NCBI RefSeq assembly: GCF_029167645.1
Contig: NZ_CP119147.1
Location: 6,528,501 to 6,592,500, forward strand
Reading direction: 5' to 3'
DNA length: 64,000 nt
Source of the DNA: Streptomyces sp. AM 2-1-1
Lineage (GTDB): Bacteria; Actinomycetota; Actinomycetes; Streptomycetales; Streptomycetaceae
Part shown: positions 24,097-44,379 of the stretch, one piece after another
Layout of the letters: the number at the start of each line of letters is the position of its first letter
Position numbering within the stretch: position 1 is the first letter of the stretch
Notes under the pieces: model-generated
What the model was told of the DNA's origin: nothing
Databases searched by the model: none
Seen by the model: only the letters and a program-made list of their open reading frames with translations
Made by a program: the position numbers and the translations under genes

Positions 24097-24100
24097 TCTC

Positions 24101-25408: not shown

Positions 25409-25590
25409 CGAGGGCTCCTTGGTGGGGTGGACGGATCTGCCGGAGTCCGCTGCGCCGCGCGCTCCCCGCCCGGGGAGCCTGGCGGGGGCCGCGGCCGGGC
25501 CCGGGGAACACGGCGGCGGGGGACTTCGGTGCGAGCGGGTTGGACCCGGGGGTGGGGGCGGGTGGCCCCTCACGTTCCGCCGGAAAGGGC

Positions 25591-27449: not shown

Positions 27450-28928
27450 TCAGGTGACGGAGATCCGCGAATCGCCGCGGGGCCGATCCGCCGGCGTCAC
27501 GGCAGGGCTCGGTGGAGCCGCCAGGTGGTCGTTTGATGCCGCCGGGTCCGTCAGCCTGTTCAGCCGGGCCGGGACGTCGAAACCGATCAGGAGCACCACG
27601 ATCACCGTGCCCGCGGAGGTGAGCACGGCCAGCGCGCGCCCCAGATCCATGCCGGACGCCAGGTGCGCCCCCAGCACCGGGGCCACGGCCCCGCCCAGCG
27701 CTCCGACGTTGTAGGTGAAGCCGAGCGCCGCCCCCCGGCCGCGGGTGGGGAAGTGGCCCCCGATGTAGCGCGGCAGCAGCCCGGAGATCCCGAAGCTGGT
27801 GGCCTGCAGCAGGAAGAGCAGGCAGCCGAGCACGAGCACGTTGTCGCGCACGGCGAAGACGGGAGCGACGAGGACGAGCGAGGCCAGCAGGGTCAGCGCG
27901 TACGCCTTGCGCACACCGATCCGGTCACCGAGGAAGCCGGCCGCACAGCATCCGGCCATGGTGCCGAAGCCGGCGAAGGTCAGGACACCGGTGACCTGGC
28001 CGCCGCTGTACCCCAGCTCGGTCCGGAGGTAGGTCGGAAGCAGGGCCTGAATCGGCCAGGAGTACAGGAACGCGAAGAAGAGCGTCACGATCATCGACAC
28101 GTACAGGAGTCCGTTTCGTCGTCCGCCCATCTGGACCGCGAACGCGAGCAGGCAGAGGCCCGCCGCCACGGACAGCGGGGCGACGAGCCCTTCACCGCCC
28201 GGCGTGAAGACCAGGAAGAGCGAGAGCGCGGCCACCACGGCGAGTGCGGTGTTGCCCGTCGCCAGCCACGGAGTGCGCACCAGCGGCCGCAGCGGGCCGG
28301 GCAGCACCTCCCGCGCCGCAGCCTCCTCCGTCCACGCCCCGGTCTCCGGCAGGGCCCGCCGCATCCACAGTGCGATCACGATGGGGACGATGCCCAGGAA
28401 GAACATCCAGCGCCAGCCGAGCGAGGGCACCACCCAGTCGTGGACCTGTGCGGCCAGCACCGAACCCAGCGAGAAGCCCGAGATCAGGAAGCCGCTGGCC
28501 CGCCCGCGCAGACGGGCGGGCCAGCTCTCCAGGACGTACGTCGCGCTCGCGCCGTACTCGCCCGCCATGCCCATCCCGACGGCGAGCCGGGCGGCGAAGA
28601 GGCTCTCGTAGTTCCAGGCGAGGCCGCACGCGAACGTGCCCAGCGAGTAGAGCAGGATGCTGGCCACCATGGAGAGCCTGCGTCCGTACCGGTCGCCGAG
28701 GGCGCCCAGTACCGCACCGCCCAGCCACCGGGTGACGAAGGCCCCGGAGACCAGACCGGCCGCCCGCGCCGTGCTCAGGTGGAAGTCGTCGGCGACCTCG
28801 GTGAGGACGAGGGTGATCAGGACGAAGTCGAACCCGTCGAGGACGTAACCGGTCCAGGCGGCGAGGAAGGACTTCCACCGGGCGGCGCCGACCTCGCGGT
28901 ACCAGGGGAAGGCGGGTGATTTCTGCAC
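27450..28928 (-). CDS. NanT-like MFS transporter (probable sialic acid:proton symporter)
   Basis: This 492-residue protein has 12-14 hydrophobic segments. MFS motifs are GALGDRYGRR (about residue 74, loop 2-3) and GFLGDRIGVRK in the second half, and the N-terminal WTGYVLDGFDFVLITLVLTEV matches the sialate/metabolite:H+ symporter group. The start is GTG at 28928. It lies downstream of nanK-nanE on the same strand (129 bp gap with an inverted repeat), and sialic acid genes follow on the other side, so import of free sialic acid or a related acid sugar is likely. Identity of the substrate is inference from context. Confidence 0.75.
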   Translation of the reverse strand: MQKSPAFPWYREVGAARWKSFLAAWTGYVLDGFDFVLITLVLTEVADDFHLSTARAAGLVSGAFVTRWLGGAVLGALGDRYGRRLSMVASILLYSLGTFACGLAWNYESLFAARLAVGMGMAGEYGASATYVLESWPARLRGRASGFLISGFSLGSVLAAQVHDWVVPSLGWRWMFFLGIVPIVIALWMRRALPETGAWTEEAAAREVLPGPLRPLVRTPWLATGNTALAVVAALSLFLVFTPGGEGLVAPLSVAAGLCLLAFAVQMGGRRNGLLYVSMIVTLFFAFLYSWPIQALLPTYLRTELGYSGGQVTGVLTFAGFGTMAGCCAAGFLGDRIGVRKAYALTLLASLVLVAPVFAVRDNVLVLGCLLFLLQATSFGISGLLPRYIGGHFPTRGRGAALGFTYNVGALGGAVAPVLGAHLASGMDLGRALAVLTSAGTVIVVLLIGFDVPARLNRLTDPAASNDHLAAPPSPAVTPADRPRGDSRISVT

Positions 28929-29057: not shown

Positions 29058-29738
29058 TCACGGCCGGGCGAGCCCGGCGACGAAACGTGCCGTGAGGGCG
29101 GTGGGCGCGGTGATCGCGGTGCCGACCACGACGCTGTGGGCGCCCCGGCCGAGAGCCTCGCGGGCCTGCTCCGGCGTGTGGAGCCGCCCTTCGGCGACCA
29201 CCGGCACGGCGACCGCGGCCGCGAGCGCCTCCACCAGTTCGAGGTCCGGACCCGGCTGCTGCGGGGAACCCGGCACGTAACCCGAGAGCGTCGTCGAAAC
29301 GAAGTCGGCCCCGGCCCCGGCCGCCGCGACCCCCTCGGCGAGCGTGGAGACGTCGGCCATCACCAGGGCGCCCGCCGCGTGCACGGCGGTGACCAGCTCG
29401 GCGAAGGCCGAGCCGTCGGGGCGCGGCCGGTCGGTGGCATCGGCGGCGACCACGGCCGCGCCCGCTTCCACGAGCGCCAGGGCGTGGTGGACGGTCGGCG
29501 TGATGTACACCCCGGTGTCACCGTCCTTCCACAGGCCGATGACCGGCAGGTCCACGGCGTCCACGATCGCGGCGACGACCCCGGGCTCGTTGGCGCGGAT
29601 CGCCGACGCCCCGCCGGCGACGGCCGCCAGCGCCAGGCGCACGAGGGCGGACGTCTCCCGCATGGGATCGCCCGGCGGCGCCTGGCAGGAGACGATCAAA
29701 CGGCCTTCGAGTACGGCGGCGAGGTGCTGTGCGGTCAT
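29058..29738 (-). CDS. nanE: N-acetylmannosamine-6-phosphate 2-epimerase
   Basis: The 226-residue TIM-barrel protein shows the NanE blocks GRLIVSCQAPPGDPM near the N-terminus, ASAIRANEPG, VIGLWKDGDTGVYITPT and the phosphate-binding VVAEGRLHTPEQA...GAHSVVVGTAIT. The enzyme converts ManNAc-6-phosphate to GlcNAc-6-phosphate in sialic acid breakdown. The ATG at 29738 overlaps the nanK stop (ATGA), so kinase and epimerase are made together. Confidence 0.92.
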   Translation of the reverse strand: MTAQHLAAVLEGRLIVSCQAPPGDPMRETSALVRLALAAVAGGASAIRANEPGVVAAIVDAVDLPVIGLWKDGDTGVYITPTVHHALALVEAGAAVVAADATDRPRPDGSAFAELVTAVHAAGALVMADVSTLAEGVAAAGAGADFVSTTLSGYVPGSPQQPGPDLELVEALAAAVAVPVVAEGRLHTPEQAREALGRGAHSVVVGTAITAPTALTARFVAGLARP

Positions 29739-30727
29739 CGGGCGACTCCCGGGTGGTGGAGGGGAAGGGACGTGGTCAGGGCCGCGGCGCCCAGCACGGC
29801 GGCGTCGTGGCCGAAGAGCGGGGGCTCGGGCACGAGCCGGCCGCGCAGGGGCGGCATGAGTTCGGCGGTGAAGGCGGCGGTGAGGGCCCGGCCGTAGACC
29901 GGACCGATCCGGGGAACCCCACCGCCCACGACGACCCGGTCGGGGCCGAGCGCGTTGGCGAGGCCGCCGAGGACCCGCCCGAGCGCCGTCGCGCCGGTGG
30001 TGATGGCGAGCACGGCGGCCCGGTCGCCCCCGGCGGCCCGGGCGGCGACCGTTTCCAACCGGTCCACCAGGGCGCCGGTGAGCCGCTCGTAATGGGCGGT
30101 GATGCCCGGGCCGGAGGCGATGACCTCCAGGTGACCGGTGGCCTCCGCACCGCACGTGCAGGGCAGCCCGGCGGCGTCCGCACTGGCCATGTGACCCAGG
30201 TGCCCGGCGACGCCCCCCGCCCCCTGCAGCATCCGCCCGTCGACGGCCACCGCCCCGCCCACGCCGGTCCCGACGGCCGCGAACAGCAGCGAGCCGTGTG
30301 GGTCGCCGAGGGCGGCGAGTTCCGGACCGGCGGTGGCGCGCACGTCGTTGTCGCAGGCCACCGGCAGACCCGTGCGGTCGGCCAGGCCAGGGCCGAGCCG
30401 GGTGCCCGCCCACCCGGCGATCGAGTCGGTGGCGCTGGTGACCGTGCCGCTGCGGGGGTCGACGACCCCGGCGGCCGCGATGCCGAGCACCGTCGCCAGC
30501 CCGCCGGGGTCCACCTCGGCCGCCGCGCCGGCGAGTGCGTCGAGGACAGCGGACGCGCCGTCCTCGGCGGGAGTGGGCCGGGTGTGCCGGGCCAGTACGG
30601 TGCCGTCGGCCGCGAAGAGCGCTGCCGCGATCTTCGTGCCGCCCAGGTCGAGACCGACGACCGGGGTCGCGGGGCGGCCCGTGCCCGTCGGACCGCCACC
30701 TCTCGCAGGGGGTGTGGTCAGGGCCAT
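29735..30727 (-). CDS. nanK: ROK-family N-acetylmannosamine kinase
   Basis: This 330-residue ROK protein has the ATP phosphate-binding motif GLDLGGTK (residues 25-32), a catalytic-Asp region VACDNDVRA and the second ATP loop VGTGVGGAV. The ROK zinc motif appears as CTCGAEATGHLE, where the usual third Cys (CxCGxxGCxE) is replaced by His and two residues are inserted. Gene order with nanE and nanA supports phosphorylation of ManNAc. The ATG at 30727 is chosen because the upstream frame has no homology and enters the regulatory region. Confidence 0.88.
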   Translation of the reverse strand: MALTTPPARGGGPTGTGRPATPVVGLDLGGTKIAAALFAADGTVLARHTRPTPAEDGASAVLDALAGAAAEVDPGGLATVLGIAAAGVVDPRSGTVTSATDSIAGWAGTRLGPGLADRTGLPVACDNDVRATAGPELAALGDPHGSLLFAAVGTGVGGAVAVDGRMLQGAGGVAGHLGHMASADAAGLPCTCGAEATGHLEVIASGPGITAHYERLTGALVDRLETVAARAAGGDRAAVLAITTGATALGRVLGGLANALGPDRVVVGGGVPRIGPVYGRALTAAFTAELMPPLRGRLVPEPPLFGHDAAVLGAAALTTSLPLHHPGVAR

Positions 30728-30968
30728 GGTGGTGAGCTCCCACTCGTTCGGAACGCCGGTTCGCCGACCGCACCGGGATCGGATCGCAACATCAGACGTA
30801 AGATGTCCTATGTCTCTGTTCACCATAGCCGGGACGCCCGGCAGTCGGTCAAGGGGTTCCCGGCCGCAAGCCTTCGGACCGGAGGCCGCCGACGGGGGTC
30901 CCCGGTGGAAGGACCTCGCATCGGGTCGGGGTGGCGCCGGTACCCGGCTCCACGTCAGGAGGAACGCC
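30728..30968. promoter_or_regulatory. Divergent control region between nanK and the FCD regulator
   Basis: This 241-bp region separates nanK (left, minus strand) from the regulator starting at 30969 (right, plus strand). It holds one copy of the 19-bp regulon operator (30790-30808), 63 bp from the nanK start, and the AGGAGG site of the regulator (30956-30963). Confidence 0.7.
30790..30808. promoter_or_regulatory. Sialic acid regulon operator, copy 1
   Basis: CATCAGACGTAAGATGTCC matches the copies at 32788, 33722 (complement) and 40596 closely. The core CATC-N2-ACGT-N2-GATG is palindromic, which fits binding by a dimeric GntR/FCD regulator. Confidence 0.75.
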
Positions 30969-31667
30969 GTGGCACGCCCCACGATGACCCAGGACATCGA
31001 GCGCAGGATCAAGGAGCTGATCCTCGGACACCGGCTCGCCCCGGGTGACCAGCTGCCCACCGAGACCGAGTTGATGGAGCTCTTCTCCGTCGGACGGGTC
31101 TCCGTGCGGGAGGCGCTCAAGGCACTCCAGGCCACGAACGTCGTCGAGATCCGGCGCGGCTTCGGTACGTTCGTCGGCACGCTCTCCCTCGCACCCTTCG
31201 CCGACGGGCTGGCGTTCCGGGCCGTCGTACGGCAACGGCAGGGCGAGCCGGGGCTGCTGGAGCTGATGAAGGTGCGCGAGGCGCTGGAGGCCGGCCTCAT
31301 CGGCGCAGTGGCCGCGGACATCACCGCCGAGGAACTGGCCGCCCTGCGCGGCCTCGTCGCCAGGATGGAGTACGAGGCGGGTGGCGGCGGCGTGGCGCGC
31401 TCCACCGACCGCGCCTTCCATCTCGCTCTCTACGCCTCCCTCGACAGCCACCTGCTCAGCGAGGTGCTCGACGCGTTCTGGGCGGCGCTGGAGAGGGTGC
31501 GCGAGGACATGGACGACGCCCACCAGGACCCCTGCCTCACCTGCGCACAGCACCGCGAGATCGTCGACGCGCTCGAAGCGGGGGACGGTGGCCGCGCCGC
31601 ACAGGCCATGCGCGTCCACTTCGACGGGGTGCGCGGCCGTCTGGAAGCGGGCTCCCCGGGCTGGTGA
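30969..31667 (+). CDS. GntR-family regulator, FCD subfamily (first copy)
   Basis: The 232-residue protein has an N-terminal GntR winged helix (about residues 5-68; GDQLPTETELMELFSVGRVSVREALKALQA, then EIRRGFGTFVG) and a C-terminal all-helical FCD ligand domain with metal-binding positions RAFHLALYASLDSHLL and QHREIVDALEAGD. The GTG at 30969 follows AGGAGG. It is divergent from nanK and shares with it an operator region, so it is one of two candidates to bind the 19-bp sites. Ligands may be ManNAc, ManNAc-6-P or sialic acid. Confidence 0.88.
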   Translation: MARPTMTQDIERRIKELILGHRLAPGDQLPTETELMELFSVGRVSVREALKALQATNVVEIRRGFGTFVGTLSLAPFADGLAFRAVVRQRQGEPGLLELMKVREALEAGLIGAVAADITAEELAALRGLVARMEYEAGGGGVARSTDRAFHLALYASLDSHLLSEVLDAFWAALERVREDMDDAHQDPCLTCAQHREIVDALEAGDGGRAAQAMRVHFDGVRGRLEAGSPGW

Positions 31668-31683
31668 GGGCGGTGGACGCCGA

Positions 31684-31728
31684 CCGGCGGTCCGCGCCGG
31701 GTGCCGCACGCCCGGCACGGACCGCCGG
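31684..31728. terminator. Hairpin between convergent regulator and esterase genes
   Basis: CCGGCGGTCCG (31684-31694) pairs perfectly with CGGACCGCCGG (31718-31728), and the GC-rich inner part can extend the stem. It lies just after the regulator stop at 31667 and 40 bp before the esterase stop, so it can serve both directions. Confidence 0.6.
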
Positions 31729-31767
31729 ACGGCCCGGTGCCGTGCGCCCGCAGCCGGGACGGCTCTC

Positions 31768-32757
31768 TCAGCCGGGCGTCACGGTGGCGAACAGCTCGCG
31801 CACCCAGGTGAGCTGGCGGCGCTGGTGGTGGGTCGTACCGCCCTCGTGCCCGTTGAACTCGTACACCTCCACCTGCTTGGGACCGCCGTACCGGTTGTAG
31901 GCGGTGAAGCAGGTGGACGGCGGGCAGATCTCGTCCATCATCGCGATCGAGAAGAGCGCCGGTGCGGTCGCCCGCGCGGCGTGATGGGCTCCGTCGAAGT
32001 AGGACAGCGTGCGGAAGACCGGGGCGGTCCGGTCGCGGTGGAGCCGCAGGTAGGAGGCGATCTCCGTGTAGGGCGGCAGGGAGGTGATGCGCGCGGCCCG
32101 CGGGAAGTTGCAGAGGAAGGGCACGTCGGGCATGACTCCCGCGAGGGAGGGGACCAGCCCGGACGCCGCCAGGGCGAGGCCTCCGCCCTGGCTGACCCCG
32201 GTCACCACGATGCGGGCCGGGTCGACGGCGGGGTGCTCGCGCATCGCCTCCACGCACCGGACGGCGTCGGTGACGATGCGCCGGTAGTAGTAGGTCTCGG
32301 GGCTCTCGATGCCGCGCGTCAGGAAGCCGGGCGTGGTCCCCGCCCCGCCGGCGTCGGTGTCGGCGGTGGCCCCGACGGCCGCGGACCAGCCCTGGCCGCG
32401 TGTGTCCATGACCAGGTGCGCGTAACCGGCGCAGGCCCACAGGAGGTTCTCGTGCGCCAGCCCGCGCCCTCGGCCGTAGCCCAGGAACTCGACGACGCAC
32501 CCCAGGGGGCCGTCCGTCCCCGCGGGCATGCGCAGCCAGCCCCGCACGGGCCGGCCGGCGTGGCCAGGAACGCTGACGTCGTACACGCGCACCTGGGGGA
32601 GGCCCGTCTCCGTCTCCGTGAACACCGGTCGCACGCAGGCGCCTTCGCCGGGCGGGGCGGCCAGGGTGCCGGACCAGAAGGCGTCGAAATCCTCGGGCTC
32701 GGGGAGGTCGGGGCGGTAGGTCACGCACTGTTCCAGGGGGAGGTCGACTGACGGCAT
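31768..32757 (-). CDS. Acetylxylan esterase/cephalosporin deacetylase-like hydrolase
   Basis: The 329-residue alpha/beta hydrolase shows the AXE1 family pattern: DFDAFWSGTLA near the N-terminus, MDTRGQGWS, the nucleophile elbow VTGVSQGGGLALA (catalytic Ser), MMDEICPP and a C-terminal NGHEGG with the catalytic His. The enzyme family removes acetyl groups from sugars. In this cluster the natural guess is removal of O-acetyl groups from sialic acids, a function normally served by NanS-type enzymes; this is inference. The ATG at 32757 has a good AAGGAC site, whereas the in-frame ATG at 32790 would lie inside the operator. Confidence 0.82.
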   Translation of the reverse strand: MPSVDLPLEQCVTYRPDLPEPEDFDAFWSGTLAAPPGEGACVRPVFTETETGLPQVRVYDVSVPGHAGRPVRGWLRMPAGTDGPLGCVVEFLGYGRGRGLAHENLLWACAGYAHLVMDTRGQGWSAAVGATADTDAGGAGTTPGFLTRGIESPETYYYRRIVTDAVRCVEAMREHPAVDPARIVVTGVSQGGGLALAASGLVPSLAGVMPDVPFLCNFPRAARITSLPPYTEIASYLRLHRDRTAPVFRTLSYFDGAHHAARATAPALFSIAMMDEICPPSTCFTAYNRYGGPKQVEVYEFNGHEGGTTHHQRRQLTWVRELFATVTPG

Positions 32758-32787
32758 GGTAGGTCCTTCGGGGAGCGAGAGGTAAGG

Positions 32788-32806
32788 CATAAGACGTCAG
32801 ATGTCC
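32788..32806. promoter_or_regulatory. Sialic acid regulon operator, copy 2
   Basis: CATAAGACGTCAGATGTCC lies 31 bp upstream of the esterase start. It differs from copy 1 at only two positions. Confidence 0.75.
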
Positions 32807-32923
32807 TGTGGGTAACGGGACCTTAGGCAGCGGAACGGATCCCGTCAAGAGTGGGGCGGTCCGCCGCACGCTCCCGGTCCGGGGCGTACGGCGGACCGGG
32901 GGCGCACGGCGGACCGCGGCAGG

Positions 32924-33670
32924 TCAGGCCGAGGCGTCCCGGCGCGCCCGCGCCTCCCTGATCCGGCGCCGGACCGGCGCGTAGTGGTCCTCGATCGCCT
33001 GGAGGAAGGCGATCGAGTCGCCCGCCCGGGCGGCGTCCACGATGCCCTGGTGGGCGGCGATCGTCGCAGTCTCGTCCGCGTGCGTGAACCCGTCGAGGTG
33101 CGGGGCGACGATCACGTAGACGTCCCAGAACGCCATGGAGAGCTGGCCGATGAGCTCGTTGCCCACCGGGGCGACCAGGAGCGCGTGGAAGGACCGGTCC
33201 GCGGCGACGAAGCCGTGGCCGTCGCCCGCACCGGTGGCGCGCATGGTGGCCACGAGTTCGTCCAGGGCGTCGAGCTGCTCACCGGTCAGCGAGGCCACGA
33301 TCCGGTCCGCCATGCCCCGTTCGAACAGCTCACGCACGTCCACCAGGTCGGCCATCACCTGGAAGTCGTCGTCGGGGGAGAGGAGACCCCGGAACGTGAG
33401 GCTCTCCACCAGGGCGGAGAGGCTGAGCCGCCCCACGTAGGTGCCGTGGCCGTGGCGGACGTCGACGATGTCGAGCGCGTCCAGGATCTTGACCGCCTCG
33501 CGCACACTGGAACGGCTGGCGCCGAGCGCCTCGCAGAGGGCGGGCTCGGTGGGCAGCGGGTCACCGGGGCGCAGCCGTTCGTCGAGGATGTAGCGCTTGA
33601 TTCCCTCCACCACTTCCTGCCGCAACAGCGTGCGACTCGGTCTGGCGCCGGAAATTTCTGGACTCCCCAC
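32924..33670 (-). CDS. GntR-family regulator, FCD subfamily (second copy)
   Basis: This 248-residue protein has a GntR winged helix (LRPGDPLPTEPALCEALGASRSSVREAVKILDAL, then DVRHGHGTYVG) and an FCD domain (ADRSFHALLVAPVGNELI, AAHQGIVDAARAGD). An in-frame ATG at 33727 would place the start inside the operator at 33722-33740, so I prefer the GTG at 33670, seven bases behind a GAGGGG site. It is divergent from the ABC transporter operon and shares its operator, the normal arrangement for an autoregulated local repressor, so it is the better candidate master of this regulon. Confidence 0.87.
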   Translation of the reverse strand: MGSPEISGARPSRTLLRQEVVEGIKRYILDERLRPGDPLPTEPALCEALGASRSSVREAVKILDALDIVDVRHGHGTYVGRLSLSALVESLTFRGLLSPDDDFQVMADLVDVRELFERGMADRIVASLTGEQLDALDELVATMRATGAGDGHGFVAADRSFHALLVAPVGNELIGQLSMAFWDVYVIVAPHLDGFTHADETATIAAHQGIVDAARAGDSIAFLQAIEDHYAPVRRRIREARARRDASA

Positions 33671-33721
33671 CTCTTGACCCCTCTCGATTGTCAAGCTACG
33701 TTCCCAGGCTATCAAGGCATC

Positions 33722-33740
33722 GGACATCTGACGTCTTACG
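33722..33740. promoter_or_regulatory. Sialic acid regulon operator, copy 3
   Basis: On the minus strand the bases read CGTAAGACGTCAGATGTCC; 17 of 19 agree with copy 2. It lies between the divergent FCD regulator and the ABC transporter operon, 94 bp before the binding-protein start. Confidence 0.78.
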
Positions 33741-33833
33741 CCCTAGTCTCCTCGCATCGTGGACTGGGCCCTCGTGGACGAACTGCTCCTCTTGCCCCGT
33801 CTCCTCTCCCTCAACGTCCCCTTTGGAGGACCC

Positions 33834-35429
33834 GTGCCCGAGCTGAGGCCCACAGGCGTCGAGCGCCGCACCTTCCTGCGATACACCGGACTCGTCAGTG
33901 CGGCGGCCGCCATCACGGCGAGCGTGGCCGCCTGCGGCGGCCCCTCGTCGACCGGTGACGACGCGTCGGGCGCCACCGGCACCACCGGCACCATCGAGGC
34001 CGGCATGTCGTACGCGCTGTCGACCGGGTTCGACCCGATGACCACCTCGGGGGCCACCCCCTACGCGGCCAACATGCACATCTTCGAGGGCCTCGTCGAC
34101 CTCGATCCGGTGACCCTCGAAGCCAGACCCGCTCTGGCCACCGAGATGCCGAAGAAGATCAACGCCACCACCTACCGGGCCACCCTGCGTGACGGCGCCA
34201 CCTTCCACGACGGCTCCGCGGTGACCGCCGAGGACGTGGTGTTCAGCTTCGAACGCATCCTCGACCCCGACAACGCCTCGCTGATGGCGCAGTTCGTGCC
34301 GTTCCTCGACGGTGTCTCGGCCGTCGACGCCAAGACCGTCGAGTTCAAGCTGAAGTACGCCTTCACGCTCTTCCCCTCCCGCATCTCGGTCGCCAGGATC
34401 GTGCCGAAGAAGATCGTCGAGGCGGACGCCAAGGGGTTCGACGCCAAGCCGGTCGGCTCGGGGCCGTACAAGTTCGTCGAGGCGATCCGCGAGGACAAGA
34501 TCGTCTTCGCCAAGTACGCGCAGTACAACGGTGCTCACCCGGCCAAGGCCGAGAAGATGATCTGGCGCCTCATCTCGGACTCCTCCGCCCGGGTCAGCGC
34601 CATGCGCTCCGGCCGGGTCCAGGCCATCGAGGACGTCCCCTACATCGACGTCGCGGGCCTCGCGGGCTCGGCGAAGACCGAGTCGGTGCAATCCTTCGGC
34701 CTGCTCTTCCTCATGTGCAACACCGCCGACAAGCGCTTCGCCGACAAGCGGGTCCGCCAGGCGCTGCACTACGCCCTGGACACCGAGAAGATCATCAAGA
34801 CCGCGCTGGTCGGCAACGCGACGGCCGCGACCGGCTACGTACCCACCACCCACCCCGACTACCACAAGGCCGCCACCGTCTACACCCACGACGTGGCCAA
34901 GGCGAAGAAGCTGCTCGCCGAAGCGGGCGTGGGCAAGCTCGAGTTCACCGTGTTGCTGACGGACACCGGCTGGGTCAAGGACGTCGCCCCGCTGATCCAG
35001 GAGAGCTGGGCCGCCGCCGGTATCGAGGCGAAGCTCGGCATCGCACAGTCCGCGGCGCAGTACGCCAAGATCGACGGCGGTGACTTCGAGGTACTCGTGG
35101 CGCCCGGGGACCCGTCCGTCTTCGGCAACGACGCCGACCTCCTGCTCCGCTGGTTCTACTACGGCTTCTGGCCCGAGAACCGGTACGGCTGGGCCAAGTC
35201 GGCCGCCTACAAGCAGGTCAAGCAGCTCCTCGACAAGGCCGCGCAGGCCGCCGACGAGAGCACCCGCAAGCAGCTCTGGGGACAGGTCACCGACCTGGTG
35301 GCGGAGGAAGCGGCGCTCTACCCGATCTTCCACCGCAAGCTGCCCACCGCCTGGAACGACAAGGGGCTCTCCGGCTTCTCGCCGCTGCCCACCACGGGCC
35401 TGTCGTTCCTGGACGTCGGCCGCGCCTGA
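33834..35429 (+). CDS. Peptide-type ABC transporter substrate-binding lipoprotein (probable sialic acid binding)
   Basis: The 531-residue protein is an SBP_bac_5 (DppA/OppA-like) binding protein. It carries a twin-arginine-like signal (RRTFLRYTGLVSAAAAITASVAAC) ending in a lipobox Cys, then the family block RPALATEMPKKINATTYRATLRDGATFHDGSAVTAEDVVFSFERI. The GTG at 33834 follows GGAGGA; the frame is open to 33759 without a better start. The SatABCD sialic acid transporter of Haemophilus ducreyi belongs to the same transporter family, and the context here (nanE, nanK, nanA-like, sialidase) suggests the same substrate. Confidence 0.85.
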   Translation: MPELRPTGVERRTFLRYTGLVSAAAAITASVAACGGPSSTGDDASGATGTTGTIEAGMSYALSTGFDPMTTSGATPYAANMHIFEGLVDLDPVTLEARPALATEMPKKINATTYRATLRDGATFHDGSAVTAEDVVFSFERILDPDNASLMAQFVPFLDGVSAVDAKTVEFKLKYAFTLFPSRISVARIVPKKIVEADAKGFDAKPVGSGPYKFVEAIREDKIVFAKYAQYNGAHPAKAEKMIWRLISDSSARVSAMRSGRVQAIEDVPYIDVAGLAGSAKTESVQSFGLLFLMCNTADKRFADKRVRQALHYALDTEKIIKTALVGNATAATGYVPTTHPDYHKAATVYTHDVAKAKKLLAEAGVGKLEFTVLLTDTGWVKDVAPLIQESWAAAGIEAKLGIAQSAAQYAKIDGGDFEVLVAPGDPSVFGNDADLLLRWFYYGFWPENRYGWAKSAAYKQVKQLLDKAAQAADESTRKQLWGQVTDLVAEEAALYPIFHRKLPTAWNDKGLSGFSPLPTTGLSFLDVGRA

Positions 35430-35500
35430 ACCCCACGTGTCCGGGCCGCCCGTGCGGCCGGCCCGGACACGCTGCCCGCCCAACCGCAAGGAAACCGACG

Positions 35501-36451
35501 ATGGTTGCATTTCTCCGGCTTGCGCTGCGCCGCGTCGCCATGATGCCGGTGATGATCCTCGGCATCGCGCTGCTGGTCTTCGTGGTGCTGCAGTTCTCGC
35601 CGACCGACCCCGCGTACAACGCGCTCGGGGAGAGCGCGACGCCCGAGGCCCGCGAGGCGTTCTCCGAGGCCAACGGGCTCAACGACCCCTTGCCCGTACG
35701 CTACTTCCGCTTCCTGGGCCAGCTCCTCCACCTGGACCTCGGGTCGACCGTCCCGCCCAGCCGGCCCGTGATCGACCGGATCACCGAGGCCTTCCCCCTC
35801 ACCCTGCAACTGACGTTCCTCGGCCTGGCCCTGGCCGTGGTGCTGGCGACGGTGGGCGGAGTCGCCGGTGCGATGTACCGCGACCGGTGGCCCGACCAGC
35901 TCTTCCGGCTCGTCTCCATGGCCGGCGTGGCGGTCCCCTCGTTCTGGCTCGGCGTACTGCTCATCCAGCAGTTCGCGCTGAACAGCCCCCTCTTCCCGAC
36001 CGGCGGCTACACCAACCCCGCCGACTCGTTCAGCGGCTGGCTCCGGTGCATGGTCCTGCCCGCCGTGTCGCTCGCCGTCCCGGTCGCCGCGTCGCTCGCC
36101 CGCCTCATACGCACCTCCATGGTCGCCGAACTCGACCGTGACTACGTCCGTACCGCGCGAGGCAACGGGCTCCCGGTCTTCCTGGTCGTCCGCTCGGTCC
36201 TGCGCAACGCGCTCGTCACCCCGCTGACCGTGCTCGGGGTGAAGGTCGGCTACCTGCTCAGCGGAGCCGTCGTCATCGAAGCGATCTTCGACCTCCCCGG
36301 CATGGGCAAACTCATCCTCGAAGGTGTCACCGGCGGCGACGTCGCGCTGGTCCAGGGCACCGTACTGACCATCGCCATCGCCTTCCTGGTGGTCAACATC
36401 ATCGTCGACCTGCTCTACCTGCTGGTCAATCCGCGCATCAGGACGGTCTGA
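35501..36451 (+). CDS. ABC transporter permease (DppB type)
   Basis: This 316-residue protein has about six membrane segments. The DppB family N-terminal block RRVAMMPVMILGIALLVFVVLQFSPTDPA and the conserved cytoplasmic EAA-loop region ELDRDYVRTARGNGLP (about residues 208-223) are clear, followed by SGAVVIEAIFDLPGMGKL. It is 71 bp after the binding-protein gene and 1 bp before the next gene, in the same operon. Confidence 0.92.
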   Translation: MVAFLRLALRRVAMMPVMILGIALLVFVVLQFSPTDPAYNALGESATPEAREAFSEANGLNDPLPVRYFRFLGQLLHLDLGSTVPPSRPVIDRITEAFPLTLQLTFLGLALAVVLATVGGVAGAMYRDRWPDQLFRLVSMAGVAVPSFWLGVLLIQQFALNSPLFPTGGYTNPADSFSGWLRCMVLPAVSLAVPVAASLARLIRTSMVAELDRDYVRTARGNGLPVFLVVRSVLRNALVTPLTVLGVKVGYLLSGAVVIEAIFDLPGMGKLILEGVTGGDVALVQGTVLTIAIAFLVVNIIVDLLYLLVNPRIRTV

Positions 36452-36452
36452 C

Positions 36453-38423
36453 ATGTTCGACACGGGCCGTCTGGCCAAGAAGCTCTCCCGACCCCACATC
36501 GCCTTCCGCGCCCTTCCGGTCACCTCCCGGATCGCCCTCGCCGTGCTCGTCGTGGTCGTGCTCGGTGCCGTGCTCGCCCCCGTCCTCACGCAGGACCCGC
36601 TCACCACCGGTATTCCCGTGCAAGCCCCCAGCGGTGCGCACTGGTTCGGCACCGACCGCGCCGGGCGCGACGTGTTCGCCCGCGTGGTCAACGGCGCGCG
36701 CTACTCGCTGGTCATCGGTTTCGGAGCGACCGCCCTCGCGCTGCTGGCCGGGTCGATCCTCGGTGCCCTCGCGGCGACCTCGCGCAAGCTGGGTGACGAG
36801 ACCGTCATGCGCACCCTCGACGTGGTGATGTCGTTCCCGCCGATCGCGCTCGCCGCCGTACTGGTCGCCGTCTTCGGGACGAGCCTCCCGGTCATCATCT
36901 TCACCGTCGCCTTCGTCTACAGCCCTTCACTGGCCCGTGTCGTACGCGCCAACGTCCTGGCGCAGTACGGCGAGGACTACGTGGCGGCCGAGAAGGTCCT
37001 GGGAGCGCGGCGGCCCCACATCGTGCTCCGGCACGTCGCCGTCAACTGCATGGCGCCCGTCATGGTGTTCGCCACCGTCATGGTCGCCGAAGCGATCATC
37101 TTCGAGGCGTCCCTCTCCTTCATCGGAGCGGGCGTCCAGGACCCCGACCCCAGTTGGGGCAGCGTGCTCGCCTACGGCCGGCAGATCCTCCTGGCCGGGG
37201 GCTGGTGGGCCACCTTCTTCCCCGGCCTCGCACTCCTGATCACCGTCCTGGCCCTCAACGTCCTCTCCGAAGGGCTCACCGACGCCTCCGCGGCGCCGAA
37301 GAGCGGTCGCACCGGCGGCGCCGATCCCCAGAAGGCCGTCAAGCCCGACCCCGTGGAGGCCTCCTCCACCGTCGACATCGACGCCGCGCTCGCCCGGCTC
37401 GCCCGGCACATCGGGTCCGCCGGGCCCTCCGTCACCCCGGTGCGGGAGGACGCCGCCGAACTCCTCGTCGTGCGCGACCTGGCCATCCGCTTCCCCGACC
37501 GGTACGGCGACATCCCGGTCGTCGACGGGCTGAACTTCACCGTGCACGAAGGCGAGACCCTCGGACTGGTCGGCGAATCCGGTTGCGGCAAGTCCATCAC
37601 CAGTCTCGCCGTCATGGGACTGCTCGCGCGCAACGCACGGGTGGACGGCGAGATCATCTACCGGGGCCGCGACCTGCTGAAGCTCCCCCCGAAGGAGCGC
37701 CGGGCGCTGATGGGACCCGAGATCGCGATGGTCTACCAGGACGCGCTCTCCTCCCTCAACCCGTCCGTCCTCGTCGGCACCCAGCTCAAGCAGCTCACCT
37801 CGCGCGGCGGCACCAGGACCCCCGCCGAACTCCTCGAACTGGTCGGCCTCGCCCCCGGACGCACCCTGCGCAGCTACCCGCACGAGCTCTCCGGCGGCCA
37901 GCGCCAGCGCGTCCTCATCGCCATGGCGCTGTCCCGCAACCCCCGCCTCCTCATCGCCGACGAACCGACCACGGCTCTCGACGTGACCGTCCAGGCGCAG
38001 GTCGTGGAGCTGCTCATCCGGCTCCGGGACGAACTGGGCTTCGCCATGGTGCTGGTCTCGCACGACCTCGCGCTGGTAGGTGACCTCGCGCACCGGGTCG
38101 CCGTCATGTACGCCGGCCGCCTGGCCGAGATCGGCGGCACCCGGGCGGTGCTGACCGACCCCGCCCACCACTACAGCCGCGGCCTGCTCGGCTCCGTCGC
38201 CTCCCTGGAAGCCGGCGCGGACCGCCTCCACCAGATCCGCGGTGTCGTCCCCGCCCCCCAGGGATTCGGGTCCGGCTGCCGCTTCGCCGGACGCTGCACC
38301 GCGGCGACCGACCTCTGCCGGACCACGCCGCCCGCGCTCACCGCGCGCGGCACCACGGAGGACCACGGCTTCGCGTGCTACCACCCGGCGCGCGCCGCAG
38401 AACTGGAAGGAAGCGCCCTGTGA
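36453..38423 (+). CDS. Fused ABC permease (DppC type) and ATPase (DppD type)
   Basis: Residues 1-275 are a DppC-type permease with the family block WFGTDRAGRDVFARVVNGARYSL (about 64-86) and an EAA loop QYGEDYVAAEKVLGAR (about 171-186). After a charged linker (about 276-330) residues 331-650 are a DppD-type ATPase: Walker A GESGCGKS (374-381), signature LSGGQRQRV, Walker B LLIADEPTTALDV, and a C-terminal Cys-containing oligopeptide-transporter tail (GCRFAGRCTAATDLC) that may bind an FeS cluster. The two parts are usually separate genes. It is coupled to the next ATPase gene by a GTGA overlap. Confidence 0.9.
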   Translation: MFDTGRLAKKLSRPHIAFRALPVTSRIALAVLVVVVLGAVLAPVLTQDPLTTGIPVQAPSGAHWFGTDRAGRDVFARVVNGARYSLVIGFGATALALLAGSILGALAATSRKLGDETVMRTLDVVMSFPPIALAAVLVAVFGTSLPVIIFTVAFVYSPSLARVVRANVLAQYGEDYVAAEKVLGARRPHIVLRHVAVNCMAPVMVFATVMVAEAIIFEASLSFIGAGVQDPDPSWGSVLAYGRQILLAGGWWATFFPGLALLITVLALNVLSEGLTDASAAPKSGRTGGADPQKAVKPDPVEASSTVDIDAALARLARHIGSAGPSVTPVREDAAELLVVRDLAIRFPDRYGDIPVVDGLNFTVHEGETLGLVGESGCGKSITSLAVMGLLARNARVDGEIIYRGRDLLKLPPKERRALMGPEIAMVYQDALSSLNPSVLVGTQLKQLTSRGGTRTPAELLELVGLAPGRTLRSYPHELSGGQRQRVLIAMALSRNPRLLIADEPTTALDVTVQAQVVELLIRLRDELGFAMVLVSHDLALVGDLAHRVAVMYAGRLAEIGGTRAVLTDPAHHYSRGLLGSVASLEAGADRLHQIRGVVPAPQGFGSGCRFAGRCTAATDLCRTTPPALTARGTTEDHGFACYHPARAAELEGSAL

Positions 38424-39427
38424 TCAGGCTCGACGGCGTCCACGTACGCCACAAGGCACGCAGCGGGGGCCTCTTCGGCAAGGACGCCGTACACGCCCTC
38501 ACCGACGTCTCCGTCGAGGTGGCCCGCGGAGAGATCCTCGGCCTGGTGGGGGAGTCCGGCTGCGGCAAGTCCACCCTCGCCCGGGTGCTGACGGGGCTGC
38601 AGAAGCCCACCGAGGGCGAGGTCCTCTTCCACGAGCGCGACCTCTGGGGGATCCCGGCGGCCGAACGGCGCGACCGGTTCGGCTCCTCGGTCGGCGTCGT
38701 CTTCCAGGACCCGTCCACGGCCCTCAACCCGCGCCTCACCGTCCGGCAGATCCTGCGCGACCCGCTGGACGTGCACCGGCGCGGCACCCGGGCACAGCGC
38801 GAGGCACGGGTGGAGGAACTCCTCGACCTCGTCGGACTTCCCGGACACACACTCGCCGCGCTGCCCGGCCAGTTGTCGGGCGGTCAGCGCCAGCGTGTCG
38901 CCATCGCGCGCGCCCTGGCCCTGGAACCCGAACTCATCGTCGCCGACGAACCCACCTCGGCGCTCGACGTCTCGGTGCGCGCCCAGGTCCTCAACCTCCT
39001 CGTCGACCTGCGCGAACGCCTCGGCCTCGGCATGGTGTTCATCTCCCACGACATCCAGACGGTGCGCTACCTCGCCGACCGCATCGCCGTCCTCTACCTG
39101 GGCCGCATCGTGGAGGAGGGCCGGGCCGAGGACGTCGCGGGCTCCCCCCGGCACCCGTACACCGAGGCGCTGCTCTCCGCGACTCCCAGCCTCCTGGAGA
39201 ACACCGAGCGCATCGTCCTGACCGGCCCGGTGCCCTCGGCCACCAACCCGCCGACCGGCTGCCCGTTCCGGACCCGCTGCTGGAAGGCCGACGAGGAATG
39301 TGCCTCGGTCTTCCCCGACCCCTCCCCGGCGGCCGGTACGCACCGCTGGCACTGCTTCCACCCCCAGCCCGCCCGACCGTCCGACGGGGGAACCACCCCG
39401 CGGACGCCTGCAAGGAGCACCGCATGA
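38420..39427 (+). CDS. ABC transporter ATP-binding protein (DppF type)
   Basis: The 335-residue ATPase has Walker A GESGCGKS, Q-loop VVFQDPSTALNPRLTV, signature LSGGQRQRVAIARAL and Walker B LIVADEPTSALDV, and ends in the Cys-rich oligopeptide-transporter tail (GCPFRTRCWKADEEC). It pairs with the ATPase half of the upstream fusion. The GTG at 38420 overlaps the upstream stop, and its own stop overlaps the start of the lyase gene (ATGA). The longer open frame upstream is not homologous. Confidence 0.92.
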   Translation: MIRLDGVHVRHKARSGGLFGKDAVHALTDVSVEVARGEILGLVGESGCGKSTLARVLTGLQKPTEGEVLFHERDLWGIPAAERRDRFGSSVGVVFQDPSTALNPRLTVRQILRDPLDVHRRGTRAQREARVEELLDLVGLPGHTLAALPGQLSGGQRQRVAIARALALEPELIVADEPTSALDVSVRAQVLNLLVDLRERLGLGMVFISHDIQTVRYLADRIAVLYLGRIVEEGRAEDVAGSPRHPYTEALLSATPSLLENTERIVLTGPVPSATNPPTGCPFRTRCWKADEECASVFPDPSPAAGTHRWHCFHPQPARPSDGGTTPRTPARSTA

Positions 39428-40356
39428 GCACGTCCACCCCCCCGTACGCCGGAGTCGTCCCGCCCGTCGTCACCCCGCTCACCGCGGACGGCACGATCGA
39501 CCGGATCTCCCTCGAAGGGCTCGTCGGCCACCTGCTCCGGGCCGGTGTCAGCGGACTGTTCGCGCTCGGCAGCTCCGGAGAGACCGCCTACCTGACGCCT
39601 GCCCAGCAGGACGAGGTCACCCGGGTGATCACGGCCACGGCCGCGGGCCAGGTGCCCGTGATCGTCGGCGCCATCGAGACCACCACCAACCGCGCGATCG
39701 AGCGGGCCCGTGCCGTCGCCGCCCTCGGCGCCGACGCCGTCGTGGTGACCGCGCCGTTCTACACCCGTACGCACCCCACCGAGATCGACCGTCACTTCCG
39801 GGAGATCGCCGGGGCCGTGGACCTTCCGCTGCTGGCTTACGACGTACCGGTCTGCGTCCACACCAAGCTGACCCCGGAGCTGCTCCAGCCGCTGGCGGCC
39901 GACGGTGTGATCGCGGGCGTGAAGGACTCCAGCGGGGACGACGGCTCCTTCCGCGTCCTGGCGAACGCGACGCGAGGGGTGCCCGGCTTCGCCATGCTGA
40001 CCGGCCACGAGCTGGTCGTGGACGCCATGATGCTCTGCGGGGCCCACGGTTCGGTGCCCGGCCTCGGCAATGTCGACCCGCACGGCTACGTGCGGCTGCA
40101 CGAGGCCGCGGTGCGCGGCGACTGGGCCGCCGCCAAGAAGGAGCAGGACCGGCTCGTGGCGCTCTTCGACATCGTCAAGGCGGCCGATCCGGCCACCGCT
40201 TCGGCGACGGCGGCCGGGCTGGGCGCGTTCAAGACCGCGCTCGAACTCCAGGGCGTCATCGCCACCAACGTCGTGAGCCCGCCGATGCGCCGCCTCGACG
40301 CGACGGAGCGCGCCACCATCGCCGCCCACCTGGAGCGCGCCGGCCTGCTGGGCTGA
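39424..40356 (+). CDS. Dihydrodipicolinate synthase/N-acetylneuraminate lyase family protein (probable NanA)
   Basis: The 310-residue TIM-barrel aldolase has the pyruvate-binding GSSGE (residues 49-53), Tyr139 in LLAYDVPV and Schiff-base Lys167 in GVIAGVKDSSGD. In this family GxxGE, Tyr and Lys are the catalytic core shared by NanA, DapA and KDG aldolases. Its place between a sialic acid-type transporter and a sialidase, with nanE and nanK nearby, suggests N-acetylneuraminate lyase, giving pyruvate and ManNAc. Sequence alone does not exclude another 2-keto acid aldol substrate. It is the last gene of the transporter operon. Confidence 0.82.
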   Translation: MSTSTPPYAGVVPPVVTPLTADGTIDRISLEGLVGHLLRAGVSGLFALGSSGETAYLTPAQQDEVTRVITATAAGQVPVIVGAIETTTNRAIERARAVAALGADAVVVTAPFYTRTHPTEIDRHFREIAGAVDLPLLAYDVPVCVHTKLTPELLQPLAADGVIAGVKDSSGDDGSFRVLANATRGVPGFAMLTGHELVVDAMMLCGAHGSVPGLGNVDPHGYVRLHEAAVRGDWAAAKKEQDRLVALFDIVKAADPATASATAAGLGAFKTALELQGVIATNVVSPPMRRLDATERATIAAHLERAGLLG

Positions 40357-40670
40357 CCGCCGCACGCCCCGCCCGGGCCGGCACGTCGAGGATTCCCGCC
40401 CCCGGCCACCACTCCGCCCCCTGACGGCGCCGGGGCGGTGTCCGGGGGCGGCGCGCGTACACGGCCCCCGCCGACCGCGATCCCTGGGGCCGCCAAGTCG
40501 GCCTCCGAGGGCGGGAGTTCATCCACCGAAACCCACACGCGGCAGAACGGTGGAATCCATTGACGTGACGGGCCCGCACTCCTACGGTCATCAAACACAA
40601 GACGTCTGATGTCTGTTGTCATAGGTCAGATGTTGCCGGATGGAATCTCCAGGCAGGAGTTGCGGACCAC
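40357..40670. other. Intergenic region upstream of the sialidase
   Basis: No gene is seen. The right third contains operator copy 4 (40596-40614), a degenerate half copy downstream (AGGTCAGATGTTGCC near 40623-40637) and the GGAG site of the sialidase. The left part is GC-rich without a convincing terminator. Confidence 0.5.
40596..40614. promoter_or_regulatory. Sialic acid regulon operator, copy 4
   Basis: CACAAGACGTCTGATGTCT lies 57 bp upstream of the sialidase start. It agrees with copies 1-3 in the AAGACGT-NN-GATGTC core (here AGACGTCTGATGTC). Confidence 0.75.
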
Positions 40671-42524
40671 GTGTTTGCCGTCCCAGCACAATCCACGTCA
40701 CGCTCGGCGCGATCCACGTCGACCTCGGCGCTGCGCCGAGGTGCGCTCGCCCTGCTGGCCCTCCTCACCGCGGTCACCACGGTGCTGCTCGTCCCCCTCC
40801 CGGCCTCGGCGGCCGTGAGCGGGCAGGCGGCGGTGGCCGACCAGGACTGCACCAGCAGCCGGATCAGGGTCACCCTGCTCAACGAGTCGGCGGCGGCGAC
40901 GACCTTCACCGCGACCTGGGCCGGCGTCGGTACCTACACGCGCACCGTGAGCGCGGGGGACCGGACCACCCTCTTCTTCACCAAGGCCGACAAGACGGTG
41001 TACTCCATCGCCGTCACCACCCCCCAGGGGCTCAACACCACCCTGAACGGCACGCTCGACTGCGGCGCCGCGCTGGGCGCCCAGATCGCCATGGAGTGTC
41101 CGCGCAACGCGGACGGAACGCTTCCCGCGACCCACCGGCTGGGGCTGACCCTGGTCAACCGCTCGGCGACCGCGCGCACCTTCACCGTCCGGTGGCCCGG
41201 CCTCTCCGCGACGACGTGGACGAGGACGGTCGCCGCCAACGCCTCGGACGCCTCGATGTACTGGACCGTGGCGAACGGCACGGCCTACGCCATCACGACC
41301 ACGGCGCCCGGCTTCACCCGGACCGAGAGCGGCCGGGCGACCTGCGGCCTGGCCACCGGAACCCCGGGGATGAACAGTCAGACCCTCTTCTCCACCACCG
41401 ATGCCGTCGCCGGGGTCAACACCCGCCAGACGGACGGCACGTACCAGGAGCGTTCCCGTACCGTGGCATCGGTCCGCATTCCGGCGATGGCCGTGTCGAA
41501 CACCGGCACGATCGTGGCCATGGCGGACGCCAGGGTCTCCAGCGCGGCCGACCTGGGCGGCGGCAGCAACGACATCCAGGTCGCGATGCGCCGCAGCACC
41601 GACGGCGGCGCCACCTGGTCCCCGGCCGAGATCGTCCAGCACGCCGGTACCACCACCGAGGGCTACGGCGACGTGAGCCTTCTGGTCGACCGCTCGGCCG
41701 GCGCCCGCGGCACGATCCACGCCTTCCTCAACTACTCCCCGGCGCCCGGCATCGGCTACTACGGCTCCGCCCCGGGATCCAACTCCGCCACCGACCCCAC
41801 CGCGATGCACATCCGGGTCATCTCCTCGACCGACGACGGAGTCACCTGGTCCGCCCCGGTCGACCTCAACCCGCAGGTAAAAAAGGTCGGTTGGGCCGGA
41901 ATCTTCGCCTCTTCGGGGCACGGTGTCCAGCTGGCGAGCGGCCGTCTCGTCCAGCCGATCGTCTACCGCGAGAACGGCGTCGACCACGCGGCGGACATCT
42001 ACTCCGACGACCACGGCGCCACCTGGAAGACCGGCGCCCCGGCCGCCACCGGAGTGAACGAGAGCAAGGTCCTCCAGCGAGGCTCCGGCAAGGTGGTGCA
42101 GAACATGCGGTCCAACGGCGGAGGCAACCGCTGGTACGCGACGGCGAGCGACGCCGGCGCCCCGGACGTGGCGAGCCCCTTCGGTACGGCGTGGAACTCC
42201 GGAATGATCGACCCGGGATGCAATGCCGACGAGATCTCCTACCTCTCGCCCACCGACGTGGACTCCGGCGGGCGCCCGATCACCACCGACACCGCGCTGT
42301 ACAGCGGCAACGCCTCCAGCAGCGGCCGCAACGAACTGACCGTGCGGGTCAGCGAGGACGACGGCGCGAGCTGGCGGCACCAGGTCCTGATCAAGTCGGG
42401 TGCCGCGGGATATTCGACGGCGGCCGTCCTCGGGAACGGAGCGATCGGAGACCTGTACGAGATCGGCGCGACCGGTGGAATCGTGTTCACCGGCTTCACC
42501 CTCGACTGGGCCAAGCAGTCCTGA
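40671..42524 (+). CDS. Secreted exo-alpha-sialidase (GH33)
   Basis: This 617-residue secreted enzyme has a signal peptide (ALLALLTAVTTVLLVPLPASAA, about residues 28-48) and two N-terminal Ig-like repeats with Cys pairs (about 58-132 and 142-226). The catalytic six-bladed propeller carries an RIP motif (SVRIPAM, 267-273) and four Asp boxes: STDGGATW (309), STDDGVTW (386), SDDHGATW (445) and SEDDGASW (561). It releases terminal sialic acid from glycans outside the cell. The GTG at 40671 follows GGAG by 11 bases. It is monocistronic and shares the regulon operator. Confidence 0.9.
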   Translation: MFAVPAQSTSRSARSTSTSALRRGALALLALLTAVTTVLLVPLPASAAVSGQAAVADQDCTSSRIRVTLLNESAAATTFTATWAGVGTYTRTVSAGDRTTLFFTKADKTVYSIAVTTPQGLNTTLNGTLDCGAALGAQIAMECPRNADGTLPATHRLGLTLVNRSATARTFTVRWPGLSATTWTRTVAANASDASMYWTVANGTAYAITTTAPGFTRTESGRATCGLATGTPGMNSQTLFSTTDAVAGVNTRQTDGTYQERSRTVASVRIPAMAVSNTGTIVAMADARVSSAADLGGGSNDIQVAMRRSTDGGATWSPAEIVQHAGTTTEGYGDVSLLVDRSAGARGTIHAFLNYSPAPGIGYYGSAPGSNSATDPTAMHIRVISSTDDGVTWSAPVDLNPQVKKVGWAGIFASSGHGVQLASGRLVQPIVYRENGVDHAADIYSDDHGATWKTGAPAATGVNESKVLQRGSGKVVQNMRSNGGGNRWYATASDAGAPDVASPFGTAWNSGMIDPGCNADEISYLSPTDVDSGGRPITTDTALYSGNASSSGRNELTVRVSEDDGASWRHQVLIKSGAAGYSTAAVLGNGAIGDLYEIGATGGIVFTGFTLDWAKQS

Positions 42525-44320: not shown

Positions 44321-44379
44321 GGCCACACCGGCGCCGGACCCCGCGGCCGCGGCCGCACGCACGCGAGAAGGAGCAGCAC

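Follow-up and report, generated by a model that had tools for sequence, protein, structure and literature searches.

Which proteins read the repeated intergenic sites of a Streptomyces sialic acid gene cluster, and does a single operator class describe them? The question is raised by a stretch of 64,000 nucleotides from Streptomyces sp. AM 2-1-1 (the window hereafter). From low to high coordinates it carries nanT, nanE and nanK (minus strand), a first regulator gene (reg1, plus), an esterase gene (minus), a second regulator gene (reg2, minus), ATP-binding cassette (ABC) transporter genes and a nanA-like lyase gene (plus) and a sialidase gene (plus). Sialic acid is a sugar found on the surface of animal cells, and these genes are predicted to serve its uptake and breakdown. 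The original prediction was that near-identical 19-bp operators define a sialic acid regulon read by FCD regulators. Gene content, conserved sites and genome specificity support this proposal well, and we consider it quite probable that the cluster forms a local regulon in which four operators would be read by two paralogous FadR-subfamily repressors encoded within it. The idea of one operator class gave way to two, O1 and O2, matched to the two regulators.

In the mechanism that we propose, an inner inverted pair (GACRT-N3-AYGTC) and its outer copies would constitute a repressor operator of up to four half-sites, and a repressor bound there would lie over the transcription start and keep RNA polymerase out. 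The recognition helix of reg1 has Val44 where that of reg2 has Ser54; reg1 would mainly read the AAG-spacer site at nanK/reg1, and reg2 mainly the CWG-spacer sites of the esterase, the sialidase and reg2/ABC. Release of the repressors would come from an acidic sugar or an intermediate of the pathway that binds beside the conserved FCD metal site.

Four sites and their specificity in the genome

The four sites are present at 30790-30808, 32788-32806, 33722-33740 (complement) and 40596-40614, on the predicted strands, and they match better than the 15-19 positions first reported: with 2, 0, 1 and 2 mismatches to CAYAAGACGTCAGATGTCC, they agree with it at 17-19 of 19 positions. The chance expectation for such sites in the window is 0.02, and four were reached in none of 100 shuffles. 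The core GACRTNNNAYGTC (GACRT-N3-AYGTC) occurs exactly four times in the 64 kb, always within these sites, against 0.24 expected. All four are intergenic, as predicted, once gene starts are corrected by inspection: the longest open reading frames of the esterase and reg2 have starts that overlap the sites, and the likely starts are ATG 32757 (esterase) and GTG 33670 (reg2). The 19-bp length was rejected because conservation extends over about 27 bp, an array of four pentamer half-sites at a 7-bp pitch, [GACRT]N2[GACRT]N3[AYGTC]N2[AYGTC]:

30788..30814, plus strand: operator of class O1, AACATCAGACGTAAGATGTCCTATGTC, spacer AAG, between nanK and reg1
32786..32812, plus strand: operator of class O2, GGCATAAGACGTCAGATGTCCTGTGGG, spacer CAG, before the esterase
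33716..33742, minus strand: operator of class O2, GGCGTAAGACGTCAGATGTCCGATGCC, spacer CAG, between reg2 and the ABC operon
40594..40620, plus strand: operator of class O2, AACACAAGACGTCTGATGTCTGTTGTC, spacer CTG, before the sialidase

At the sialidase site, two weaker heptads (AGGTC, ATGTT) follow further downstream.

The palindrome had been described as centred on ACGT, which is partly right. The complementary pairs out of 13, counted about the central base and about ACGT respectively, are 8 and 7 at nanK-reg1, 8 and 8 at the esterase, 9 and 8 at reg2-ABC, and 9 and 9 at the sialidase; with every GAYRTC hexamer almost its own complement, the window sites alone leave the centre undecided. The sites of relatives mostly centre on the spacer: for four relatives' or consensus sites, the pairs about the central base number 11 of 13 in the reg2 consensus, in locus L119 and in the L137/L140 site, and 8 of 13 in the reg1 consensus. 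The dyad centre is probably the N3 spacer, not ACGT. The consensus sites read GACGTGAGACGTAAGATGTCCTATGTC for reg1, AGCATCAGACGTC(A/T)GATGTCTGATGCC for reg2 and about GACAGAAGACGTCAGATGTCCTG for the esterase. The array recurs with different spacers at divergent reg1 relatives (52-67% identity) that lie close to nanA, nanK or nanT; two examples, each scoring 20/20, are GACATAGGACATCCCATGTCCCATGTC (L119) and GACGTGGGACGTAGGATGTCCTACGTC (L157).

Across the 7.2-Mb genome, a first sequence model built from 24 sites, four of them the window's own, gave these four 24.5-26.0 bits and the next locus 16.2 (best 150 of 980 candidates scored). Because of the window's own contribution, the model was rebuilt from the 20 sites of other genomes; the same four ranked first at 23.6-25.2 bits, followed by a locus at 16.4 (best 150 of 832 candidates scored). 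A search with the 15-base core, allowing at most 3 mismatches, returned 57 matches on the two strands (27 + 30), where the reversed pattern gave 6 and 12, and off the cluster there was only one match with a single mismatch; the weaker matches at 2078676 and 3884735 were rescored. The original prediction would have fallen had the motif stood at many unrelated promoters, and the scan found four strong sites among the best-scored candidates. On this evidence we rejected a global motif. An unrelated global regulator, with sites conserved in nan clusters by chance, is conceivable in so far as the binder is assigned from sequence only; given so few strong sites among the best 150 candidates, and given that these flank two FCD genes and co-vary with them, we regard such a regulator as extremely improbable.

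Several loci outside the cluster deserve mention. The next-best site of the same genome (L098, G000:C1:5962411-5962433) falls at the start of a further FCD regulator gene and is taken as a site belonging to that paralogue; a gene of the enolase superfamily (MR_MLE) is close by. A candidate at G000:C1:2274694, which overlaps the start of a second encapsulin-like gene, was dropped: it scores 12.6 bits in the 24-site model and is not in the list of the leave-out model. In L097 (G000:C1 about 1555115-1555137) a core site with two mismatches lies just past a TTGACG/TAGGGT-like box, and the gene after it encodes a secreted-looking protein with beta-helix and ricin-lectin domains; as a regulon member this site, at 1555120, is unproven, being missing from both profile lists (best 150 candidates each). 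In three other genomes (L140, L141 and L142 in G166, G070 and G179), O1-like arrays scoring 20/20 each precede a two-gene operon of Gfo/Idh/MocA-like oxidoreductases off the nan cluster, and the fetched stretches hold no reg1 or reg2 homologue at E 1e-12. This operon is possibly a distant regulon member encoding a step connected with the pathway. Both oxidoreductases of L141 were checked for likeness to NanOx: for the first the best PDB match is 1,5-anhydro-D-fructose reductase, E. coli YjhC being weak (1.9e-8); for the second YjhC is not among the PDB matches listed.

Conservation and promoter placement

The same-genus sample comprised 199 genomes, the own genome included, and regulator searches scored the best 13-14 candidates per genome. 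Reg2 orthologues (at least 66% identity) were found in 34 of the 199 (13 candidates scored per genome). In 35 loci around reg2 orthologues and in the window, upstream regions were scored on the four-half-site pattern, which has 20 fixed positions. All 17 reg1 regions scored 19-20; scores of at least 14 were reached by 35 of 36 reg2 regions, 24 of 24 esterase regions and 7 of 27 sialidase regions, and 107 of 111 control regions, upstream of four other genes, scored 13 or less. The sialidase site thus has the least conservation support of the four, and the other three are kept at the same promoters in relatives. Since in many relatives the BNR gene comes after the esterase on the same strand, the sialidase may share the esterase promoter there.

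Outside the genus, where 396 genomes were searched, two matches at 1e-45 or better were obtained, both with CTG-spacer sites (17/20 each, scored without control regions). One site lies between a reg2 homologue (52%) and the gene for the solute-binding protein (SBP) in G282; the other lies between the SBP and permease genes of G236, whose cluster also holds nanA, nanK and nanE. Within the genus, paralogous ABC clusters (SBP about 40% identical) have related arrays such as GACGTAGGACGTCGTATCTC beside regulators of the 'RN' type. Such SBP5-type clusters with 'RN'-helix FCD regulators and 7-bp arrays were seen at L101-L109, L112, L114 and L143-L145. In loci with reg1 homologues of roughly 55% identity (L110, L113, L115, L146-148, L153-156, L159), tblastn detected no nan genes, and no array reached 16/20.

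The operators are preceded by promoter-like boxes:

30822..30852, minus strand: predicted nanK promoter, TTGACC-N19-TATGGT, 7 bp upstream of the O1 operator; arrangement in 17/17 loci
32820..32848, minus strand: predicted esterase promoter, TTGACG-N17-TAAGGT, 7 bp upstream of the operator; 24/24 loci
33674..33702, plus strand: predicted ABC-operon promoter, TTGACC-N17-TACGTT, 13 bp upstream of the operator; 30/35 loci
40560..40588, plus strand: predicted sialidase promoter, TTGACG-N17-TACGGT, 5 bp upstream of the operator; window only

A TTGA[CT]N-N16-19-TANNNT box stands before the operator in 24 of 24 esterase regions, 17 of 17 regions on the nanK/nanA side, 30 of 35 on the ABC side and at the window sialidase (1/1). 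On the regulator sides it occurs in 0/35 and 0/17, and among shuffled upstreams in 1 of 3800. The boxes are sequence matches to a looser pattern (TTGA[CT]/TANNNT) picked after viewing the aligned loci, which are related; a scan with the sigma-70 consensus gave a single promoter box, on the reg2 side. The operators start 5-13 bp past the -10 hexamer, a spacing that fits repression by covering the transcription start, and repression at the start of transcription is the best reading of this placement.

The same geometry bears on a different possibility, that the sites serve activation or that divergent promoters are under dual control by an FCD protein. On the reg2 side a -35-like TTGATA abuts the reg2/ABC operator, which there lies upstream of the box, and for FadR the available part of PMC6608401 describes operator location as deciding between repression and activation. 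On the catabolic side of the window, the operator follows the -10 hexamer at a distance that suits repression, and we judge activation or dual control very unlikely.

Two operator classes and two regulators

Reg1 and reg2 are 39% identical and belong to the FadR (FCD) subfamily of the GntR family, each combining an N-terminal winged helix with a C-terminal FCD domain (reg1: GntR PF00392 at 5e-20 and FCD PF07729 at 1.4e-23; reg2: 3.4e-17 and 8e-21, respectively). Their operators differ in the spacer, which is AAG at nanK/reg1 (O1) and CWG at the esterase, reg2/ABC and sialidase sites (O2). The exact O1 20-mer GACRTAAGATGTCYNATGTC occurs at 19 places in 16 of the 199 genomes, 16 of these places being directly upstream of reg1; it is found in 16 of 18 genomes with an in-cluster reg1 and in 0 of the 181 others. 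Likewise, the exact O2 19-mer TCAGACRTCWGAYGTCTGA is present in 19 of 34 genomes with reg2 and in 0 of the 165 others. The 16 genomes that have reg2 and lack an in-cluster reg1 contain exact O1 in 0/16 and exact O2 in 8/16 cases. In six loci of this kind (L081-L086), the esterase is followed on its own strand by nanA, nanK and nanE, which would thereby come under the O2 site.

The spacer class also tracks the residue that follows the Arg of the recognition helix, Val going with AAG and Ser with CWG. For reg1 ('RV') the AAG spacer was scored in 16 of 17 cases; in the remaining case, L073, the scored register was off by one heptad, and the register of the architecture score gives AAG. For reg2 ('RS') the spacer is CAG or CTG at 33 of 35 reg2 sites and at 23 of 24 esterase sites, if these are credited to reg2; the Ser exceptions are three CCG spacers, two at reg2 and one at the esterase. 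A tree of 91 regulators built with FastTree places the 36 reg2 proteins in a single clade (support 0.94). The 20 proteins grouped as reg1 do not make a closed group, since seven further regulators descend from the same ancestor, and 2 of the 20 have Asn instead of Val at the helix position.

Such a division of labor competes with a simpler arrangement in which reg2 alone controls the four sites, reg1 serving otherwise, or both proteins bind all sites as redundant repressors. A single base separates the O1 core from the O2 core, so that cross-binding is likely; genomes with reg2 and without an in-cluster reg1 keep the sites at reg2/ABC and, where present, at the esterase; and in one locus (L149, G023) a GRV-type regulator, with Val as in reg1, is paired with a CAG spacer. 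Against this arrangement stand the restriction of the exact AAG-class site to genomes with an in-cluster reg1, its position, at most of its places, directly upstream of that gene, and the correlation of helix residue with spacer. We find the arrangement unlikely.

Cross-binding and L149 also weigh against the two-repressor regulon with matched operator classes, and they are not alone in doing so. One reg2 upstream region (L090) scores 12 and has no site near reg2, and 4 of the 111 control regions reach 14-17. If seven genomes with reg1 homologues of 64-67% identity are added, exact O1 drops to 16 of 25. Allowing one mismatch, the O2 19-mer appears in 34 genomes, and 9 of these lack reg2; five loci of the latter kind were examined, four of which adjoin other FCD-type homologues (27-33% identity). 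The O2 sites of the own genome match this 19-mer neither exactly nor with one mismatch, because their outer half-sites differ. The usual ABC promoter box is missing from five loci (L077, L078, L080, L088 and L094). Finally, the presence of the O1, O2 and promoter patterns is partly built in, as they were drawn from the same loci, and the counts and Fisher tests ignore shared ancestry and so are not proof. The telling parts are the absences of the patterns elsewhere and the zeros on the regulator sides.

Turning to the effector, the equivalents of the metal ligands (D172, H176, H222 and H244) are kept in 36 of 36 reg2 proteins and 20 of 20 of the reg1 grouping, and indeed in all three groupings examined. 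The pocket was compared with the Neu5Ac (N-acetylneuraminic acid) contacts of E. coli NanR given in the available part of PMC8012715. At the equivalent of Arg203, 18 of the 20 reg1 proteins have Arg and all 36 reg2 proteins Ile or Val; at that of Gln221, 17 of the 20 have Gln and all 36 have Ala, Asn, Asp or Val. The contacts Asn165, His214 and Asn215, read by eye, are kept in neither window regulator. The pattern suggests that reg1 and reg2 sense different ligands; the candidate effector of reg1 would be Neu5Ac, that of reg2 being less clear.

A bolder, tentative idea, which we hold to be possible and somewhat doubtful, is that a duplicated repressor pair split one regulon. An ancestral operator of four half-sites would have given rise to two spacer classes, each fitted to one of the paralogues by one helix position (Val/Ser/Asn), with effector pockets diverging so that two signals are sensed, and several dimers would load cooperatively on the 7-bp arrays. 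If true, the catabolic operon could respond to free Neu5Ac, for example, and uptake, de-O-acetylation and the sialidase to a different sialic acid or to an intermediate further down the pathway; cooperative dimer loading would then proceed as in E. coli NanR, but on unrelated half-sites.

The gene cluster and known systems

The genes of the cluster are as follows:

27450..28928, minus strand: nanT, sialate:H+ symport transporter of the major facilitator superfamily (NF003024, 625.4 bits, cut-off 604)
29058..29738, minus strand: nanE, N-acetylmannosamine 6-phosphate (ManNAc-6-P) epimerase (PF04131; NF002231, 263.4 bits, cut-off 189)
29735..30727, minus strand: nanK, ROK-family kinase (PF00480; N-acetylmannosamine kinase models below cut-off; named from context)
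30969..31667, plus strand: reg1, GntR/FCD regulator, recognition helix GRVSVRE
31768..32757, minus strand: AXE1-family esterase (PF05448, 4.7e-101; no NCBIfam match), possibly a sialate O-acetylesterase
32924..33670, minus strand: reg2, GntR/FCD regulator, recognition helix SRSSVRE
33834..35429, plus strand: SBP5-family solute-binding protein (PF00496)
35501..36451, plus strand: ABC permease (PF00528)
36453..38423, plus strand: fused ABC permease-ATPase (permease models at residues about 20-285, ATPase models at about 337-645)
38375..39427, plus strand: second ABC ATPase of the operon, named from the open reading frame sequence
39424..40356, plus strand: nanA-like lyase of the DHDPS family (PF00701; NanA and DapA models below cut-off; named from context)
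40671..42524, plus strand: BNR-repeat sialidase (PF13088, 4.8e-26)

The names of the kinase, lyase and regulators rest on context, because their scores lie below the cut-offs of the NanK, NanA and NanR models. The NCBIfam NanR model NF003011, with a cut-off of 260 bits, is the best NCBIfam match of both regulators, though reg1 reaches only 119.9 and reg2 100.1 bits. A second nanA-like gene, 50-57% identical to that of the window, lies beyond the reg1 operator in relatives (L061-L066, L068, L070-L076, L078), and the window is without it. Seven Streptomyces species have a second nanA copy according to the available part of PMC8754123.

Next to the nan cluster, 23206-27003 on the minus strand encodes a methyltransferase, a terpene cyclase that matches 'family 2 encapsulin cargo protein terpene cyclase' and a family 2B encapsulin shell protein; the genome has a second encapsulin shell gene at G000:C1 about 2273300-2274700 (L096). 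Downstream of the sialidase, 42809-45600 on the plus strand holds a gene for a photolyase-related protein (DPRP) and then one of the spore photoproduct lyase (SPL) family.

Among known systems, each compared through the accessible parts of the papers cited, E. coli NanR (PMC8012715) is likewise a GntR/FCD repressor of sialic acid genes with a short-repeat operator placed to block transcription, and equivalents of its metal-ligand Asp and His residues are kept in reg1 and reg2. It differs in being a single regulator whose three dimers bind three GGTATA repeats; no GGTATA-N3-GGTATA within 2 mismatches, at that spacing only, occurs in the window. The operator consensus of the FadR subfamily, NyGTM-N0-1-KACNy (PMC4494728), shares with our sites dyad symmetry and a GT-N3-A(C/T) core in the inner pair. 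The O2 core GTCWGAY fits one half of that consensus and carries AT for GT in the other, the O1 spacer is AAG, and, unlike FadR-subfamily operators, the window sites add half-sites on both sides at a 7-bp pitch. Extra symmetry within a GntR-family operator is also known from SdhR, whose 'palindrome with additional symmetry', TCTTATGTCTTATATAAGACATAAGA, contains ATGTC/GACAT elements; it belongs to another subfamily (HutC) and differs in spacing and core (PMC4494728). In Streptomyces itself, the FadR-type repressor HypR of S. coelicolor (PMC6608401) recognizes the motif CTNTGC(A/C)ATGTCAC, which holds an ATGTC half-site. HypR differs in controlling hydroxyproline genes, and in a symmetry its authors call unclear, and the accessible text describes no four-half-site array for it.

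The wiring proposed here is concrete and checkable for sialic acid use in Streptomyces-like actinobacteria, and the natural series of Val, Ser and Asn helices against AAG, CWG and other spacers offers a case of change in FadR-type DNA specificity after duplication. In C. glutamicum and B. breve, proteins called NanR are reportedly actinobacterial repressors of sialic acid genes, as attributed to Uhde et al. 2016 (cited in PMC8861201) and Egan et al. 2015 (cited in PMC4746261), respectively; their operators lie outside our comparison, and the accessible literature on Streptomyces and actinobacterial nan operators does not describe the present one.

In S. olivaceus, sialic acid is used by free-living strains only, not by insect-associated ones (PMC8749437, part of the text). 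The nan clusters of the class Actinomycetia (PMC8754123) contain the pathway genes and the regulator family found in the window, with a fadR gene in 226 of 234 clusters; a word search of the available text of that paper gave no nanR, operator, GntR or motif, and its accessible passages describe no division between two regulators. FadR-type genes in actinobacterial nan clusters are known, and the operator and the paired regulators are, provisionally, new.

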